DNA of 21,536 nt, taken from the IMG/VR virus record IMGVR_UViG_3300008219_000129, positions 1 to 21,536 of that record; one strand, given 5' to 3'. The number at the start of each line of letters is the position of its first letter. Positions within the stretch are counted from its first letter, which is position 1. Source of the DNA: a virus. The notes below the pieces were generated by a model, which ran no database searches, had not been told where the DNA came from, and saw only the letters and a program-made list of their open reading frames with translations. Shown one piece after another: positions 5,906 to 21,536 of this stretch. A program made the position numbers and the translations under genes.

Positions 5906-6225
5906 TGGGAAAAGGTAAACGAAATAAAAAGAAGGCCGATTTGCAAAAAACAATGAATATGTTTAGCAAAATACCTAATAATTGCTTAAATTGTGGTGAA
6001 ACTTTTGATAAAACTAATAAAGAGATGGTTCAAAAGTGGAGAGTTATTGTTAATAATGAACCAGCTTCCGTTAAACTTTATTGTCCAGATTGTTGGGAAC
6101 AAGCCCAGGCTACACTAGAATATGTTAATAAACAACAAAAAGTTGAAGAAAAGACTGAACAAGATAAGCCTCAAGATGATTATGCCACATGGGCTTACAA
6201 TTTAAACAAAACGAGGGAAAAATGA
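5905..6225 (+). CDS. Small CxxC/CxxC zinc-ribbon-like protein
   Basis: This gene encodes 106 residues from the ATG at 5905, which shares one base with the dUTPase TAA (TAATG); AGGTAGGTGG just upstream can serve as ribosome-binding site. The N-terminus is strongly basic (MGKGKRNKKKADLQK). Two Cys pairs, C27-x2-C30 (NNCLNCGETF) and C60-x2-C63 (LYCPDCW), are spaced as in a zinc ribbon. The C-terminal third is acidic and probably disordered. A zinc-binding nucleic-acid or protein-interaction role is likely from the pattern, but the family is not named here. It is coupled to the next gene by ATGA. Confidence 0.8.
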   Translation: MGKGKRNKKKADLQKTMNMFSKIPNNCLNCGETFDKTNKEMVQKWRVIVNNEPASVKLYCPDCWEQAQATLEYVNKQQKVEEKTEQDKPQDDYATWAYNLNKTREK

Positions 6226-7244
6226 GAAAAGCTTTAAGTTTTGATGATGTTCTTTTAGAACCTCAATATTCTGATATTTTTAGTAGAAAGGATGTTGACT
6301 TAAGCGTTGATTTAGGAAGAGGTGTCGAACTAGAGCTTCCTATTATTTCTAGTCCGATGGACACCATAAGTGGTAAAGACATGGCAATTGCCATGATGTC
6401 TGCTGGGGGAATGGCTATTATACATCGATATAACACAATTGAAGAGCAAGTAGGAATTATCACAAAGGTTGTTGAAGAACGATTTCCTGCTAATATTGGT
6501 GCAGCAATCGGTATTACTGGAAATTATTTAGAAAGAGCAGATTTGCTTTATACAGCAGGAATAAAAATGCTTTGTATTGATGTTGCACACGGAGATCATA
6601 CTCTCATGAGAGAAGCTTTGCAAACTCTTAAAAATAAATTTAATGATTCCGTACACATAATGGCTGGCAACGTTGCAACTTTAGAAGGATTTAATCGACT
6701 GGCTGATTGGGGTGCCGATAGTATTAGGGTTGGAATTGGGGGTGGTTCTATTTGTTCGACAAGAATCAAAACTGGGCATGGTATACCAACTTTTCAATCA
6801 ATATTAGATTGCGCCAAATCTGATAGAGAAGCCAAACTTATTGCTGACGGTGGGATCAAAAATAGTGGAGACATAATAAAATCTATAGCGGCCGGCGCTG
6901 ATGCAATTATAACTGGTTCTCTTTTAGCGGGTACCGACGAAACACCTGGGCCAATTGTACACGACGAAAAAGGAAATCAATATAAGTCATATAGAGGTAT
7001 GGCATCAAGATCAGCCCAAGTAGATTGGCGTGGCAAATCTTCTTCGCCAGAAGGAGTATCAACACAGGTGATATACAAAGGCTCGGTAATTGATATTTTG
7101 TCTGACTTGGAAGGTGGTATACGTAGTGGCCTTTCTTATTCTGGTTCTATTGATTTGGATATTTTGAGGGCAAAGGCTAAATTTTTAACTCAAACAAATG
7201 CTGGCCAAAAAGAAAGTTGGACTCACATTTTGGAGCGCAATTAA
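6222..7244 (+). CDS. IMP dehydrogenase / GMP reductase family enzyme, no CBS domains
   Basis: This is a (beta/alpha)8 enzyme of the GuaB/GuaC family, 340 residues from the ATG at 6222, which overlaps the previous stop as ATGA and begins with the family signature [14 protein letters not shown]. The catalytic loop reads [13 protein letters not shown], with the thioimidate Cys 178 and Thr 180. A nucleotide-binding IADGGI follows near 207, then SYRGMAS near 257, PEGV near 276 and [11 protein letters not shown] near 298. The CBS pair that IMP dehydrogenases usually carry is missing. The flap between RGMAS and PEGV is short and lacks the Arg-Tyr (RYFQ) pair of IMP dehydrogenases, which is closer to GMP reductase. 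It therefore either oxidises IMP to XMP or reduces GMP to IMP; I lean slightly to GMP reductase-like. It would adjust purine pools during infection. Confidence 0.93.
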
Positions 7245-7893: not shown

Positions 7894-8610
7894 ATGAAAA
7901 ACAGAGATTTATTAAGTGAAAACACTGTTCGTCGCTTTATGCAACTAGCAAATGTTGGCTCTATTGGTTTGAGTTCAAACCAGAAGCTTCATGAACAATT
8001 CCCAGAAGAAGAAGAAGAAGAAGAAAGAGGCCCAGATTTAGATGCGCCCGATGAGGCCCCTATGGCCGCGGCAGAACTTGAGCCTGAACTTGAGCCTGAG
8101 CTTGAGCCTGAGCTTGAGCCTGAGCTTGAGCCTGAGCTTGAGCCTGGCGCCGAAGAGGGCGTTGTAAAGGGTGAAGTGGCTGTTATGGATCTTGTTGATG
8201 CAATTGCTGATGCAATCACCACCGAAACAGGCGTGAAAGTAAAAGCAGAAGAGGCCGGCGGAGAAGAACTAGCTTTGGGTGGAGAAGAAGAGGAAGGTGA
8301 AGAAATGGAAGGTGGCGAAGAGTTGGGTATGGCTCCTGAATTGAGTGATGAAGAAATAATGGCTGAGAAATACATTCGCGACAAGGTACGCCAAGCTCTT
8401 GTTACGGAATCCAAGACTCATACAAAACAACCCTCTAAACTAGAAGAAAAAATAGCTACGCTTTATAATCATCGTATGAGACAGTTATCTAAGCCAGTAT
8501 ATGTAAAGGCAGAGGCCGATATCGTCAAAGAAGTTAGGACTGAAACTTTATCCAATGAAGTACAGCGCCGGGTTCTTTCGCGCATACTGGAAGATACAAA
8601 AAACAAATAG
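7894..8610 (+). CDS. Acidic low-complexity protein with ELEP repeats
   Basis: This gene encodes 238 residues from an ATG with CAGGAGA at 7881-7887. The first 30 residues (LLSENTVRRFMQLANVG) form a compact, conserved-looking basic helix. They are followed by a long Glu/Pro/Ala/Gly-rich acidic region that includes six perfect ELEP units and several Glu runs, then a mixed helical C-terminal domain (about 155-238) that ends in basic helices. The design (short N-terminal tag, acidic disordered middle, helical tail) resembles phage prohead core or other virion-internal proteins, but this is inference. It is the last gene before a terminator and is preceded by an 82-base gap. Confidence 0.85.
   Translation: MKNRDLLSENTVRRFMQLANVGSIGLSSNQKLHEQFPEEEEEEERGPDLDAPDEAPMAAAELEPELEPELEPELEPELEPELEPGAEEGVVKGEVAVMDLVDAIADAITTETGVKVKAEEAGGEELALGGEEEEGEEMEGGEELGMAPELSDEEIMAEKYIRDKVRQALVTESKTHTKQPSKLEEKIATLYNHRMRQLSKPVYVKAEADIVKEVRTETLSNEVQRRVLSRILEDTKNK
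8074..8145 (+). repeat. Six 12-bp in-frame tandem repeats (ELEP)
   Basis: Six head-to-tail 12-base units, GA(A/G)CTTGAGCCT, cover 72 bases and encode ELEP six times. The first two units have GAA and the remaining four have GAG as the first codon, so the last four are identical at DNA level. Such an array can lengthen or shorten by replication slippage without a frameshift. Confidence 0.95.
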
Positions 8611-11269: not shown

Positions 11270-12880
11270 ATGGAAAATAAAGATTTAGATTCTCTCTTAA
11301 TAGAACATTATGCCAAAAATAAAAAACAAGCCATCACTCCAAAATTATTATTTGAAATGATTGAGGAGGTAATGGATGGGCTAAAGACCGTACAATCAAT
11401 AACAGAAAAGAGAAGCCCCGGAGCTAGTGAGGAAAAAGAGTTAACAATTATTATGCCAATCATTCGACTATCTGAAAAAGAATGGGGCAAGGAAGGCACA
11501 AAAGATAGAGAAATCTTAACCAATCTTTTGCAGAGAATTATTGCAAAAGGAAGAACTCTTTCTGAAAAAATTACAGCAATTAATGATTTCCTCACATCTC
11601 CTCCAATTGAGGGTGCTGAAATTTCAGAGATCTTAAGCCACATTGTCTTTTTGGACACCTTAACCAACATTCTTATACACTTCAACGCTTCTGCTGCTGG
11701 CTTTACCTTTGAAGGTTTTCTAGCTGCACTTCTAGAGGGCGAACAGGTGCCAGCAGGAACAGCCGGTATTCAGGATATTATTGATAACGAGAAGGCTCCA
11801 ATCAGCTTAAAATTGTTAACGGAGTCTAGAGGTGGTGATATCCACGGAAGCTATGCTGATTTAATTTCTCACTTCACAGACCCAACAAAAGTTTCTCCTC
11901 TTGTGGCGGATCCGGAAACTGGAAAAATGATTGACAACCCTGACTACTTGGGACAATCTGGTGTTGGCGGTTCAATGAAATATATCATTGCTCTCAAAGA
12001 ACTTTCCGGAGAAGGCTCAGATGAACTGGAGGGCAACATTAAATTTTATGAGTTTGACTTTAATGCAGAAACCTTTTTAGATGCGCTAATTCAAGGCCCC
12101 TCTAAGAATCATTCGCTTCTCTTATTACCTAAAAATTTGGGCGCAGAGTATAAAGTCGAAGCTGACTCAGTTGAAGAATTTAATCCTTTGGGCGCACCAG
12201 AAACCGATGAATATTTAAATCTTGGTAAAGATAGTAAAAAGGTCTACAATACTATGATGAGCGATATGACTCCTGCGGCAGCTTGGGAACTTTGGAAGAC
12301 CGCTGAAATAAATAAAGATGAAGTGTGGGGCGGCGGCCCAAGATTGGGACAACCGAGATTAAAAATTGTACAAAGAGGAACAGATAAAATTTTATACATT
12401 CCCAGTGGTACAATCAGGGGAGCAGATCCTAGATTCAAAAAAGTGGCCGGCCTTTCAATGGAGGGTTATATGTCTTATGGTGAGTCGGTTAAACTTTTAA
12501 GGTATACTTTATCTAACAGCGAACAAGCTTTTTGGGATTTGATCGGCAAGACCACCGGCGCTGATCTTCAAAGCGGTGAAAGAGAAGAAACACAGTTTGT
12601 GGTAGCTAATAGATATTATAGGAAAGATTACGAAAATGGCGTTGGCTACTTGGGGCAAATTGGTGTTGGCAAGTCTGCAATTACAGAATTGGCAAATAAA
12701 TATGCGGAAGTTCTACAGCAACAGATTTTTGATATCTTTGGGCTCGTACAAACTTTGAGCAGCCAGTTGAATAGCTATTTTGTTGGTGGCGATAAAGAAC
12801 AGGGTCTTGAAGCAGCCAGAACTGCTGGAAGAATTGAAAAGGGCACTAGAAAATATCACAAAAAAGAACAAGAGAAATAA
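11270..12880 (+). CDS. 536-residue protein with a possible PD-(D/E)XK nuclease signature
   Basis: The first 130 residues are helical and hydrophilic. Residues about 146-185 read FTFEGFLAALLEGEQV, then GIQDIIDNEKAPISLKLL. This has the arrangement of a PD-(D/E)XK nuclease core: a helix with Glu (E148), a strand with Asp (D169), and a strand with S179-L-K181 in place of E-x-K, followed by a GGDIHGSYADLI segment. It is an outline match, not a proven family. The remaining 330 residues are mixed and contain Gly/Pro-rich turns (GGGPRLGQPRLKIVQRG) and a coiled-coil-like stretch near 475-500 (AEVLQQQIFDIFGLVQTLSS). The start has a weak ribosome-binding site (AAGGA 11252-11256). A virion structural role cannot be excluded. 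Confidence 0.8.
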   Translation: MENKDLDSLLIEHYAKNKKQAITPKLLFEMIEEVMDGLKTVQSITEKRSPGASEEKELTIIMPIIRLSEKEWGKEGTKDREILTNLLQRIIAKGRTLSEKITAINDFLTSPPIEGAEISEILSHIVFLDTLTNILIHFNASAAGFTFEGFLAALLEGEQVPAGTAGIQDIIDNEKAPISLKLLTESRGGDIHGSYADLISHFTDPTKVSPLVADPETGKMIDNPDYLGQSGVGGSMKYIIALKELSGEGSDELEGNIKFYEFDFNAETFLDALIQGPSKNHSLLLLPKNLGAEYKVEADSVEEFNPLGAPETDEYLNLGKDSKKVYNTMMSDMTPAAAWELWKTAEINKDEVWGGGPRLGQPRLKIVQRGTDKILYIPSGTIRGADPRFKKVAGLSMEGYMSYGESVKLLRYTLSNSEQAFWDLIGKTTGADLQSGEREETQFVVANRYYRKDYENGVGYLGQIGVGKSAITELANKYAEVLQQQIFDIFGLVQTLSSQLNSYFVGGDKEQGLEAARTAGRIEKGTRKYHKKEQEK

Positions 12881-12883
12881 TTC

Positions 12884-12912
12884 TTTACATTTCTACTAAA
12901 AACAATTATATT
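12884..12912 (+). promoter_or_regulatory. Sigma-70-type promoter (TTTACA-17-TATATT) upstream of groEL
   Basis: TTTACA at 12884-12889 (5 of 6) and TATATT at 12907-12912 (5 of 6) are separated by 17 bases, directly after the stop codon at 12880. The expected start point is near 12919, about 17 bases ahead of the ATG at 12936, which has AAAGG at 12926-12930. This suggests groEL has its own host-type promoter. Confidence 0.65.
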
Positions 12913-12935
12913 ATATAACAACAAGAAAGGTATAT

Positions 12936-13046
12936 ATGTCACGAAAATATGATACGGTTCATCGCTTCGAGAAAAAACCCTCAAAGGAGTTGATGTGTTG
13001 GCTGATAATGTTGCTTCAACATTGGGCCCAAGAGGAAGAAACGTAA
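12936..13046 (+). other. Out-of-frame 5' fragment of groEL / 36-residue leader frame
   Basis: The ATG at 12936 has the promoter and ribosome-binding site expected for groEL but reads only 36 residues to TAA at 13044-13046. It starts MSRKYD, as a GroEL would, and then diverges. Moving back one base at about 12951-12953 gives YGSSLREKTLKGVDVLAD in the groEL frame, exactly the conserved N-terminal helix of the family. The ORF is therefore either the 5' exon-like piece of a frameshifted groEL, a site of programmed shift, or a sequence error. Confidence 0.65.
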
Positions 13047-14503
13047 TTATTCATCAAAAAGGTAAAAATCCTTTTATTACCAAAGATGGTGTTACTGTTG
13101 CAAGGTTTGTGGAATTAGAAGATCCCTTTGAAAATGCAGCCGCCCAAATCATTAAACAAGCAGCATCGCAAACAAATCAAGTTGCCGGAGATGGGACAAC
13201 AACAGCAACAGTTATTGCTCGTTCTATTTTACAAAACGCACAAAAATATTTGGTTGCCGGCGTCTCTTCAATTGAACTTAAAAGAGGTATTGACAAGGCT
13301 GTAAAAGAGATAGTTAAAAATCTAGAGGAACAATCAAAACCCATTAGATCAAAAGAAGATATCGCTCATATTGCAATTATTTCAGCCAATAATGACAAAA
13401 CTATAGGAGATCTTATAGCAACCGCAGTCGACAAAGTTGGCAAGGATGGCGCCATTACAGTTGAAGAGGCAAGGTCCGTTGAGACGGCCTTAGACGTACT
13501 TGAGGGCTTCCGTTTTGATTCCGGGTACTTGGCCACTGCCTTTGTCACTGACGAGCGCAGAGGGGCTCTGAGATACGAAAATCCATATATTTTAGTAACC
13601 GACCATTCAATTGATTCTCTTGAAGATATTTTGCCCGTATTAGAGGTTGTAGCCAGAGAAAACAGACCTTTTGTTATTGTTGCTGAAAATGTTGAAGGTC
13701 AGGCTTTGGCTGCGTTGATTATGAATTCATTACGTGGAACAATGAAAGTAGCCGCTGTTAAAGCACCAAGATATGGTGAGGAAAGAAAAAATATTCTAGA
13801 AGATTTATCTCTTTCTATTGGCGCAACTTTTGTTTCAAGAGAATCTGGTATGAGAATTCGTGATGCCAAGCTAGAACATCTAGGTACAGCTAAAACAATT
13901 GAGTCTCTTAAAAATCTCACAACAATTGTTGGAGGAAAAGGAGACCACGAAGTTGTCGAAGATCGCATTGAATCTTTAAAAGAGTTGATAATACAAACTG
14001 ATTCAGTTTATGAATGTGAAAAAGTTCAAGAAAGAATTACTAGACTAGCTAGCGGTATTGCGGTTGTTTATGTTGGTGGTTTAACTGAAGTGGAAATGAT
14101 TGAGCGCAAACATCGAATTGAAGATGCACTAGAAGCAGTTAAGGCCGCGCAAGAAGAAGGAGTTGTCCCAGGAGGTGGAGTTGCTTTGATCCGTGCAATT
14201 AAAAACTTGATTGTAGAGACTGAGAATGAAGAACAAAAGCTTGGTGTAGATATTGTTGTTAATTCTGTTAAGGAACCTTTAAAACAAATGGCTTGTAATG
14301 CAGGAAAATCTGCAGACCTCATATTAGACTTGGTTGAAAATCAGACTTGTGAGACACATGGTTATGATTTTGTAACAGATAGTGTTGTTGATATGTTTGA
14401 AGTTGGCGTAATTGATCCAGTAAAAGTTACAAAAAATGCGTTAATAAATGCAGCTTCTGCTGCCTCTGTACTAATTACTACTGATTATGCGATTGTTGAA
14501 TAG
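12995..14503 (+). CDS. groEL: GroEL-type chaperonin (apparent frameshift near the 5' end)
   Basis: This is a group I chaperonin subunit that folds proteins inside a double ring by ATP hydrolysis. From the GTG at 12995 it has 502 residues, starting at LADNVASTLGPRGRN; the family normally has about 20 more residues before this. Key ATPase motifs are intact: LGPRGRNV, ITKDGV, AGDGTTTATV, EDALEAVKAAQEEGVVPGGG and VIDPVKVTK. The C-terminus ends without the usual GGM-rich tail. AGGAG at 12985-12989 is suitably placed for the GTG, so a truncated start is possible; but frame-2 codons upstream (12953 onward) encode the conserved YGSSLREKTLKGVDVL, which points to a longer ancestral protein (about 522 residues). 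No GroES-like gene is in the window, so it may use host GroES or act alone, as the chaperonin of phage EL is reported to do. Confidence 0.93.
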   Translation: MLADNVASTLGPRGRNVIIHQKGKNPFITKDGVTVARFVELEDPFENAAAQIIKQAASQTNQVAGDGTTTATVIARSILQNAQKYLVAGVSSIELKRGIDKAVKEIVKNLEEQSKPIRSKEDIAHIAIISANNDKTIGDLIATAVDKVGKDGAITVEEARSVETALDVLEGFRFDSGYLATAFVTDERRGALRYENPYILVTDHSIDSLEDILPVLEVVARENRPFVIVAENVEGQALAALIMNSLRGTMKVAAVKAPRYGEERKNILEDLSLSIGATFVSRESGMRIRDAKLEHLGTAKTIESLKNLTTIVGGKGDHEVVEDRIESLKELIIQTDSVYECEKVQERITRLASGIAVVYVGGLTEVEMIERKHRIEDALEAVKAAQEEGVVPGGGVALIRAIKNLIVETENEEQKLGVDIVVNSVKEPLKQMACNAGKSADLILDLVENQTCETHGYDFVTDSVVDMFEVGVIDPVKVTKNALINAASAASVLITTDYAIVE

Positions 14504-14524
14504 TTGAGCGGGAGAAACATTTTC

Positions 14525-14800
14525 ATGCCAAACGAACCACTAAGTGAAACGCAATGCCTATCAGTCAATATTGCTGAACTCGGCGCAAAAATTGAAATGC
14601 TCTTGGAAAGACAAGAGGAAATGGCAGAAAATGTAGCAAAAATTAAAGAAGCTATTTACAATCCAGATCAGGGTTTGTATGCTAGGTTACGCGAATTAGA
14701 AAATTGGAAACAAACCTATTCCCGCCTTCAGTGGATAATCGTCACAGGTCTTGTAGCTCTTACAACTGGTGCTCTTTGGAATGTTATTATTAGTAGTTAA
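14525..14800 (+). CDS. Coiled-coil protein with C-terminal membrane helix; possible holin/XhlA-like
   Basis: This gene encodes 91 residues from the ATG at 14525, with GCGGGAG at 14508-14514; the earlier in-frame TTG at 14504 is less likely. Residues about 16-45 are a heptad-like coiled coil (LGAKIEMLLERQEEMAENVAKIKEAIY), then YNPDQGLYARLRELENW, then one membrane helix at the end (LQWIIVTGLVALTTGALWNVI). The order (coiled coil, then a C-terminal membrane helix) is that of XhlA-type hemolysin/holin-associated proteins. An endolysin without a signal peptide is 3 kb upstream, which fits a lysis role, but the call is inference. It ends nine bases before the next promoter. Confidence 0.78.
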   Translation: MPNEPLSETQCLSVNIAELGAKIEMLLERQEEMAENVAKIKEAIYNPDQGLYARLRELENWKQTYSRLQWIIVTGLVALTTGALWNVIISS

Positions 14801-14808
14801 AAAAAAGC

Positions 14809-14837
14809 TTGAAATAATGGTTCAAACATTGTATAAT
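14809..14837 (+). promoter_or_regulatory. Sigma-70-type promoter (TTGAAA-17-TATAAT)
   Basis: TTGAAA at 14809-14814 (5 of 6) and a perfect TATAAT at 14832-14837 are separated by 17 bases. Start point is expected near 14844, giving a leader of about 25 bases that contains GAGGAG (14859-14864) ahead of the ATG at 14870. It should drive the small-gene group from 14870 to the terminator at 17654. The -35 and spacer contain a short TTGAA/TTCAA inverted repeat (14809-14813, 14821-14825) that could be an operator, though it is too short to claim. Confidence 0.8.
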
Positions 14838-17992: not shown

Positions 17993-20900
17993 ATGAAAAT
18001 AAATAAATTGTTTGAGAACTGGAATAGCTTTCTCAATGAATCAAATAAAAATAAAGAACAAAAAGTAATTTACGAGATCAGCGATCAAGCGCATGATATG
18101 ATGGCAAATTACTTGGGCGGCGAAGTCTATATTGATGACCTTCGGTTTACAAATTTATTTGGTGATAAGCTTCGCATGATAAAGGAACTGAAGACAAAGG
18201 GCGCCGGCCCTCGCTCAGACCTTGTTCATTTTTTTGAAAACAACGGATGGGAAATCACTATAGAACCAAGAGAGGTTCAGATAAAAAAAACGAGAAGAAT
18301 GCCGGATGGTTCCGAGCAAAGGGTTGCTAGCACAGAAACTCGAAATGATGTATTCGTCACCAAAAAGTTTGAGGTTGACCCCGAAAAAGTTGCAAGTTTT
18401 ACCAAAGGGGACAGGGGCCCAAGAGATCAAGTAAGAAAAATAAAGCTTGGCAAAATGCTGAATAAATTAGCTAAAAGCAAACTATTAGATAGTGACCTTT
18501 CATATGAAGACAGAACTCAACACTGGACAAGAATAGAAACCCCGCAAGGGCCCTACCTTCAAGCAGAGTTTCCAAATATTAGAGAACACCACATAGGAGA
18601 ACAGGAGTATTCCGAGGAATTGGAATCCAGTGACAACAAAATGAATTTGTGGAATGAATACTGGAACAAAAAATCAGCTTATTTTTCCGAGAAGCCAGAG
18701 GAGTTAACAGCGAAAGAGAAAAAGTATGTGATTTTCTCTAGAGATCCCATAGATGTGATAAGGATGAGCGATTGGAGTCACATAGATTCTTGTCATACTG
18801 AAGGAAAATCACATTTTCATTGTGCAGTAAAAGAGGCAAGAAATTCAGGCTTTGTCGCTTATTTGGTTGATGAAGATAGTTTTGATAACGAAATCATGCG
18901 ACATGCTGACGACGAGGATAGTCCACAGGACGCTTTGAGTTCCTTTGATGGTGAAGAGATATTTAGCGATAGTGAAAGAAACGTTTCTGGGATAAAACCC
19001 ACTGCAAGACTCCGCGTAAGACGCTATGTAAATTATGAAGATGATGTTGAATTGGCAGTACCTGAAACTAGAGTATACGGTGATAAGCTTCCCGGTTTTT
19101 ATACAGCAGTAAAAAGCTGGCTACACGATAATCAAGAAGACCCAGAAAAGATAGTTGATCCAAATAGAGATGACGTGGAGGCCGCAAACTACATGCACGA
19201 GTTCTATCTTACTGGAGGCTCATACGAAGACAATAGCGCTAGTGACCTTTGGAACAAATATTTCAATACAGATATATTTACGGGCAACGTAGAACATGAT
19301 GATGAGGGAGATCCCGAAGATCAATATGAGAATATGGGTCAAGCTGCGGAATACGAGAGGAGAACTCAGGAGCTTAATGATTATGCGAACCAGAACCTAA
19401 ATCACATCAGCGCTGGTTCCGATGTTGATGATCACGGCTTCGGAGAAAACCCTTATATATCTTTTTGGGCAGCCGGCCGCATTGAATTTCCAGCCCATGA
19501 AAGAGCACCAAACGAAGACCCAGAGTTTGAGGGTAAATATGCTGAATTACCAGATTGGTCGTGGAGCAATACAGATACTGAAATTGCAGATGAAATCAAA
19601 GAGGACTTGGATAATAGATATTTTGATACTCCTCAACTTGCATATGATAGCGACGGTCTAGAAATAGAAGAGACAGGAGTTGAGGACTCCGTAAGGGTTG
19701 GGTTAAGATTTAGTAGCGACGATTATGATCCTGACCCAGACGGATATGAGAACTTCATTGACAATCTAGAACACTGGGACCAAAACTGGGTTGAAGTCAA
19801 AAAGATAATAAAGTCAGTATTAAGAAAACATGGAATCTTACAAAAAACAGCAGTTCAGATTTATGCTACTGCTGAAAGAGAATTTAAACATTTTGACATT
19901 GATGAAGTCGCTGACGGTTATGAAGTGGAACAAACTGATTGGGTTGAAGTTGGCACTGCTTTGAACCTACCCGCTTCAATGGTAAAAATAGTTGGCGATA
20001 AGTGGAATCGAAGCAGCCCCGGAGGCGGATCCTCTTATACTATTGAGTGGGTTGACATTAGCAATGAATTGCTTGACGGCACAATTTCCCAATTAATTGG
20101 AAAAATCCGAGACAAAGAAAAACAAACTAGTCTTGATTTAAATGAGGCGAGAAGTAGGGCTGGATTACATCAGGGGCAATTTAGAATACTAAAAGACGTA
20201 CTTAGAAAAGGATTCAAGATGTGGCTTGACCCAGTAGAGGAAAAGATTTCCGGTACCGGCAACGGCGGCGGAACTAGGGCCTTTTCTCAAGAAGATTATA
20301 AGCTAGGCAATTATAAAATAAGAATGAAGATGAGGTTCGATCTCCCTGATGATTTGCCCAAAGAGATGTTGGAATACTTTCTTATGCTCATTGATTATAT
20401 TGATGATAACATGGAATGGATAGCACAAAGGGTTGACGCCATATTACAGGACTATAACATCAAATATGTGAGACATATAAAAGCCCAAATTGAAGCTGAT
20501 CAACTTTGGAGAGATGAATTTATGCCCGACTTGGAAAAGAGAATGGCGGTAGCTGGAAAAGAAATGGCACAAACAGTAAGTTTTTGGCAATCATTGATTC
20601 CCAAAGATACACTAGAAGACCAGACTCAGCAATTTATTCGCGAATGGATAAACGAGGAGTCAGGATATCAAGATTACATGACAACAAACCACACCCGCGC
20701 AAAAGAAAGCTTGGAGACATGGGGAGAGGGCGAGGTATTACCCGATACGGCCAAACACTACGTTAAAAGTTTTAAAGAAAGTGTCGATAACTGGGAACGT
20801 TCTAAACCAATTCGAGATAAAATTAATACCATGGTGACGGAGATGATGAAAGCTTTGGGAGAAATGGCCTCTGGTAAGTTGGACTGGCCGATTGCTTACG

Positions 20901-21536
20901 AAAAGATTGTTGGTATTGATACCAACGCTCAAGACACTCGTCCTATGAAGCGACGGGCCCTTCTTGGAGAGTTGTTTGCCATGTACAAAGATGTGGCTCT
21001 TAGAGGGATGAGGAGCGAAGAAGAGCCCGAATTTGGCGACTACAAGGTAAGACAGTTGGCTAGAACCAGAGCATTCCTCAAGCGGTATGAAAGGAAAGTG
21101 GCTAGTCTTGAAGCAGGAGAAGCGGAGAAAGACATAGCAGACGAAGTAGATGCGCTGAGACAAAGCGCAGAAGTTTCTTTCAAATATAGATTCGAACAGA
21201 GAATGAACACCAGCGCAGTCGAGTTGGATGTCAAAAGAGCAGAGCACCTGTTGGAATATATTGTTGATAATCAAATTAAAGCAGAAAATGATTTGCCTAG
21301 AAGGTATCTTTTACAATTAAACTATTTAAGAGGGTTATATCGAGATTTTCATGGCCACCCCGCGTCCTACATGATTCCAGAAATGGAGAAGCTGCACCAT
21401 CACCAATTCATTGGCAAATTAGATCGCATGGTTGCTTATCTCAATAAAGCGTTTGAGGCGGGTACGGCAGACTATGAGTCGGTGTTCACGCGACCGGAAT
21501 TAAAGCGAGGCGGCGAAGGTCTACACGCATTGAAAC
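17993..21536 (+). CDS. Giant open reading frame, at least 1181 codons, runs off the window
   Basis: The ATG at 17993, with AAGG at 17981-17984, opens a frame that I read through codon by codon to the last base with no stop, so the protein is at least 1181 residues. The first 16 residues (MKINKLFENWNSFLNE) look like a separate short N-terminal tag. Residues about 262-292 hold WSHIDSCHTEGKSHFHC, then FVAYLV, and PTARLRVRR follows near 336-343; the SC, VAYL and AR blocks recall a loose phage-protein pattern of unknown role, with C267 and the nearby His as possible functional residues. From about 300 to 640 the protein is very acidic (Asp/Glu-rich); from about 700 on it is mainly long charged helices, including probable coiled coils. 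A virion-internal or structural protein is plausible by size, but I do not recognise it. Confidence 0.88.
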   Translation, partial: MKINKLFENWNSFLNESNKNKEQKVIYEISDQAHDMMANYLGGEVYIDDLRFTNLFGDKLRMIKELKTKGAGPRSDLVHFFENNGWEITIEPREVQIKKTRRMPDGSEQRVASTETRNDVFVTKKFEVDPEKVASFTKGDRGPRDQVRKIKLGKMLNKLAKSKLLDSDLSYEDRTQHWTRIETPQGPYLQAEFPNIREHHIGEQEYSEELESSDNKMNLWNEYWNKKSAYFSEKPEELTAKEKKYVIFSRDPIDVIRMSDWSHIDSCHTEGKSHFHCAVKEARNSGFVAYLVDEDSFDNEIMRHADDEDSPQDALSSFDGEEIFSDSERNVSGIKPTARLRVRRYVNYEDDVELAVPETRVYGDKLPGFYTAVKSWLHDNQEDPEKIVDPNRDDVEAANYMHEFYLTGGSYEDNSASDLWNKYFNTDIFTGNVEHDDEGDPEDQYENMGQAAEYERRTQELNDYANQNLNHISAGSDVDDHGFGENPYISFWAAGRIEFPAHERAPNEDPEFEGKYAELPDWSWSNTDTEIADEIKEDLDNRYFDTPQLAYDSDGLEIEETGVEDSVRVGLRFSSDDYDPDPDGYENFIDNLEHWDQNWVEVKKIIKSVLRKHGILQKTAVQIYATAEREFKHFDIDEVADGYEVEQTDWVEVGTALNLPASMVKIVGDKWNRSSPGGGSSYTIEWVDISNELLDGTISQLIGKIRDKEKQTSLDLNEARSRAGLHQGQFRILKDVLRKGFKMWLDPVEEKISGTGNGGGTRAFSQEDYKLGNYKIRMKMRFDLPDDLPKEMLEYFLMLIDYIDDNMEWIAQRVDAILQDYNIKYVRHIKAQIEADQLWRDEFMPDLEKRMAVAGKEMAQTVSFWQSLIPKDTLEDQTQQFIREWINEESGYQDYMTTNHTRAKESLETWGEGEVLPDTAKHYVKSFKESVDNWERSKPIRDKINTMVTEMMKALGEMASGKLDWPIAYEKIVGIDTNAQDTRPMKRRALLGELFAMYKDVALRGMRSEEEPEFGDYKVRQLARTRAFLKRYERKVASLEAGEAEKDIADEVDALRQSAEVSFKYRFEQRMNTSAVELDVKRAEHLLEYIVDNQIKAENDLPRRYLLQLNYLRGLYRDFHGHPASYMIPEMEKLHHHQFIGKLDRMVAYLNKAFEAGTADYESVFTRPELKRGGEGLHALK

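Follow-up and report, generated by a model that had tools for sequence, protein, structure and literature searches.

Frame break between the start signals and body of a viral groEL: most likely an error in the sequence or a recent deletion of one base

The window, meaning the whole stretch of DNA that we analysed, is a 21,536-base virus record. Besides groEL, the contig carries genes for a DNA polymerase III alpha subunit, a dUTPase, a ClpP-like protease, an amidase and a glutaredoxin. At 6189-7244 lies a phage-borne member of the IMP dehydrogenase/GMP reductase family (PF00478, 343.6 bits). Two further frames had no PHROG match: an acidic ORF at 7894-8610 in which EPELEPELEPEL is repeated in tandem, and a 1181-codon frame at 17993-21535 that runs off the contig end. 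The nearest relative of the window groEL is IMGVR_UViG_3300025141_000432 (L021), whose protein is 84% identical; the two contigs are collinear in several stretches with 63-74% DNA identity, including 12870-14814. The features at the groEL locus are as follows.

12925-12952, plus strand: groEL start segment, comprising Shine-Dalgarno-like GAAAGG, ATG 12936 and the opening codons MSRKYD, separated from the body by the change of frame (alignment to the L021 start region)
12950-12956, plus strand: site of the one-base difference in codon 7, with its placement inside the codon approximate (single gap versus L021)
12936-13046, plus strand: 36-codon frame opened by the native start and terminated by TAA (direct reading)
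12953-14503, plus strand: groEL body frame, Cpn60_TCP1, 516 open codons (Pfam PF00118, PHROG 5725)
12983-12997, plus strand: AAAGGAG...GTG internal start-like signal on groEL codons K-G-V-D-V, judged incidental (conserved in 0 of 101 relatives)

Direct reading places GAAAGG at 12925-12930 and the ATG at 12936-12938, from which translation gives MSRKYDTVHRFEKKPSKELMCWLIMLLQHWAQEEET up to the stop at 13044-13046; the residues following MSRKYD in this frame are unrelated to GroEL. The GroEL-coding frame, beginning YGSSLREKTLKGVDVLADN, starts at 12953 immediately 3' of its in-frame TGA (12950-12952) and runs uninterrupted as far as TAG 14501-14503, in the -1 frame relative to ATG 12936. In this contig, the complete N-terminal strand and first helix are consequently not found in frame with the body. 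The initial annotation had put the start signals and the GroEL body in different frames, and its coordinates proved correct. It had also claimed a promoter, for which a TTTACA-17-TATATT match does exist at 12884-12912, but a single match is what chance would give (mean of 1.1 in shuffles). Its view that the two pieces together make up a GroEL N-terminus holds beyond chance, as L021 aligns across the Shine-Dalgarno sequence, the start codon and the body; the same alignment rules out a chance resemblance of the N-terminal piece to GroEL.

The body matched profile positions 1-487 of 490 in Pfam PF00118 (225.9 bits) and 24-532 of 540 in PHROG 5725, and it contains the ATP-binding motifs TLGPxGRN and GDGTTT, which are invariant or nearly so in a 17-member alignment. 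Judged from its sequence, the body belongs to the Group I chaperonins (GroEL). Over the 516 codons compared with L021, the window differs at 80 first, 32 second and 266 third codon positions, so that third positions hold 266 of the 378 differences; dN is 0.10 and dS near 2.8, a value at saturation. This pattern indicates strong purifying selection on the body, the gene having been maintained as a protein until very recently. Even the short stretch of 14 codons that separates the lesion from the internal GTG still resembles the GroEL N-terminal helix, with 9 of 14 residues identical. Because the gene displays no decay, the lesion is either very young or not real.

Comparison with related phages, which the initial annotation had suggested, confined the break to this contig. 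Two profile or protein searches gathered 115 IMG/VR groEL loci, 101 of which were distinct in 5' sequence and readable, and L029, read separately, makes 102; three loci that start at a contig edge (L075, L082 and L085) were excluded from the frame judgement. In every one of these 102 distinct viral-contig loci with a readable 5' end (34-84% identity), the start is in frame with the body, the start codon lying about 28-37 codons upstream of the GPxGRN motif; none showed a break between the two. In another relative, IMGVR_UViG_3300005747_000090, we observed three elements in succession at about 480-1360: a short piece of the groEL N-terminus that matches over residues 1-56 and then reaches a stop, an ORF resembling a GIY-YIG homing endonuclease (MNSGIYKITNLVTKKIYIGSSKNLKHRF...), and a further groEL that has a start of its own; this looks like a mobile endonuclease inserted at groEL.

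When the start regions of L021 and the window were aligned, exactly one base was absent from the window, in codon 7. The initial annotation had named an extra T as the base that would join the frames. This T is not favoured, because it would make residue 7 a Tyr, which occupies that position in 0 of the 101 relatives. The residue is Asp in L021, and among the 101 it is Ser in 28, Asp in 21, Phe in 18, Asn in 16, His in 8 and others in the rest, as located by a fixed offset from GPxG that is approximate in the most distant members.

It is almost certain, from these comparisons, that the groEL of the window is an ordinary phage gene carrying in codon 7 a one-base lesion peculiar to this contig, which arose from either a sequence or assembly error or a very recent deletion. 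This option, which the initial annotation had listed among three, agrees with every comparison made. Between its two forms, we judge sequencing or assembly error to be the most likely, and a recent real deletion to be the less probable but still a serious candidate. The gap itself is free of any homopolymer, so that a homopolymer error of the usual kind is less likely; this is the main point against simple sequencing error, though a single error and a real deletion would both be compatible with it. Short-read-based viral assemblies are reported to contain about 2 indels per 100 kb or fewer, and long-read ones many more (PMC6487183); at such rates, one indel in 21.5 kb would be unsurprising. 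A tblastn search with the relatives' ORFs, which is blind to the first few codons of genes and to regions lacking relatives, detected no further frame break in the window, so the contig does not seem to be generally poor, which again is compatible with a single error as well as with a real deletion. Neither exact IMG/VR DNA scans allowing 0-4 bases at the lesion nor one with a 35-base piece of the groEL body returned another copy of this virus from a scan set that may lack near-identical records, and BLASTN against isolate phages gave distant matches only.

The two forms would have different consequences for the predicted product of a gene that is ordinary apart from the one base absent from codon 7. 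If the base was lost through sequencing or assembly error, the viral GroEL would be normal, at about 522 residues. With a real and recent deletion, ribosomes starting at 12936 would terminate after 36 codons, and the sampled genotype would lose full-length GroEL.

Alternatively, translation could begin at GTG 12995 and give a functional chaperonin of 502 residues with a shortened N-terminus. The internal start signal that the initial annotation had pointed out, AAAGGAG-TTGAT-GTG ending at 12997, is indeed present; its AAAGGAG is good and lies 5 bases from the GTG, and the body beyond is conserved and open. However, AAAGGAG is formed by groEL's own K-G-V codons, and the codon aligned to GTG 12995 is a start codon in only 2 of 101 relatives (one TTG, one GTG). 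None of the 101 distinct relatives has both a start codon and a Shine-Dalgarno sequence at the aligned site, which dismisses a conserved internal start. The codons 5' of the GTG also remain GroEL-like. Moreover, truncation would cost the protein its N-terminal strand, half of its first helix and, within these, L5 and G12 (body frame), two residues that show no variation in the 17-member alignment. Subunit-subunit contacts in E. coli GroEL involve the N-terminal strand. A literature search on tests of GroEL N-terminal deletions provided nothing directly usable. With the readable relatives all full length and in one frame and the internal start signal unconserved, the new truncated chaperonin offered by the initial annotation finds no backing, and we regard translation of a functional protein from GTG 12995 as very improbable. 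The same low probability applies to the fuller scenario, in which a real deletion has been fixed in this virus and the 502-residue chaperonin of the phage works without the inter-subunit N-terminal strand.

The least probable explanation is that GroEL output is regulated by a programmed -1 frameshift or by transcript slippage, with GAAAAAA (12971-12977) as the point where the frames are joined. The A run is present where the initial annotation had placed it and sits in the overlap of both frames, and a -1 slip there would yield a full-length protein with some residues altered. Against this, it is not a canonical heptamer: GAAAAAACCC at 12971-12980 provides no X-XXY-YYZ in the start frame, and a slip at this point would leave the GroEL-like codons of 12953-12971 in the wrong frame. 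The RNA of 12978-13060 folds no better than shuffles (z of -0.10, for pseudoknot-free structures), and the window had no Rfam match. A frameshift is needed by 0 of the 102 relatives, and since 16 of 101 carry a six-A run in the same stretch, every one of them in frame, the run is a matter of codon composition. Programmed frameshifting was rejected for want of a heptamer, a structure and conservation, and the regulated expression that the initial annotation had considered is likewise unsupported.

We may conclude that the break most likely reflects an error in the sequence or a recent loss of one base, and not a new kind of gene. Automated gene calling would log a truncated, GTG-started GroEL at this locus, and such an entry should not be read as a new chaperonin form. 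Outside annotation the case has little significance; if the deletion is real, it would capture a single phage genotype just after the loss of its chaperonin.

Among known systems, the L021 phage groEL is the closest, with the same start region (MSREYDDGRSLREK) and collinear flanks, but it misses no base and its start and body are in frame. More distant than L021 are the GroEL proteins of cultured phages such as Flavobacterium phage vB_FspM_immuto_2-6A, which is annotated and about 46% identical across the whole body. E. coli GroEL (1AON and other solved structures) belongs to the same fold family, with residues 1-514 of the window body aligning to chain residues 7-520, whereas it is a cellular protein with an intact N-terminus.
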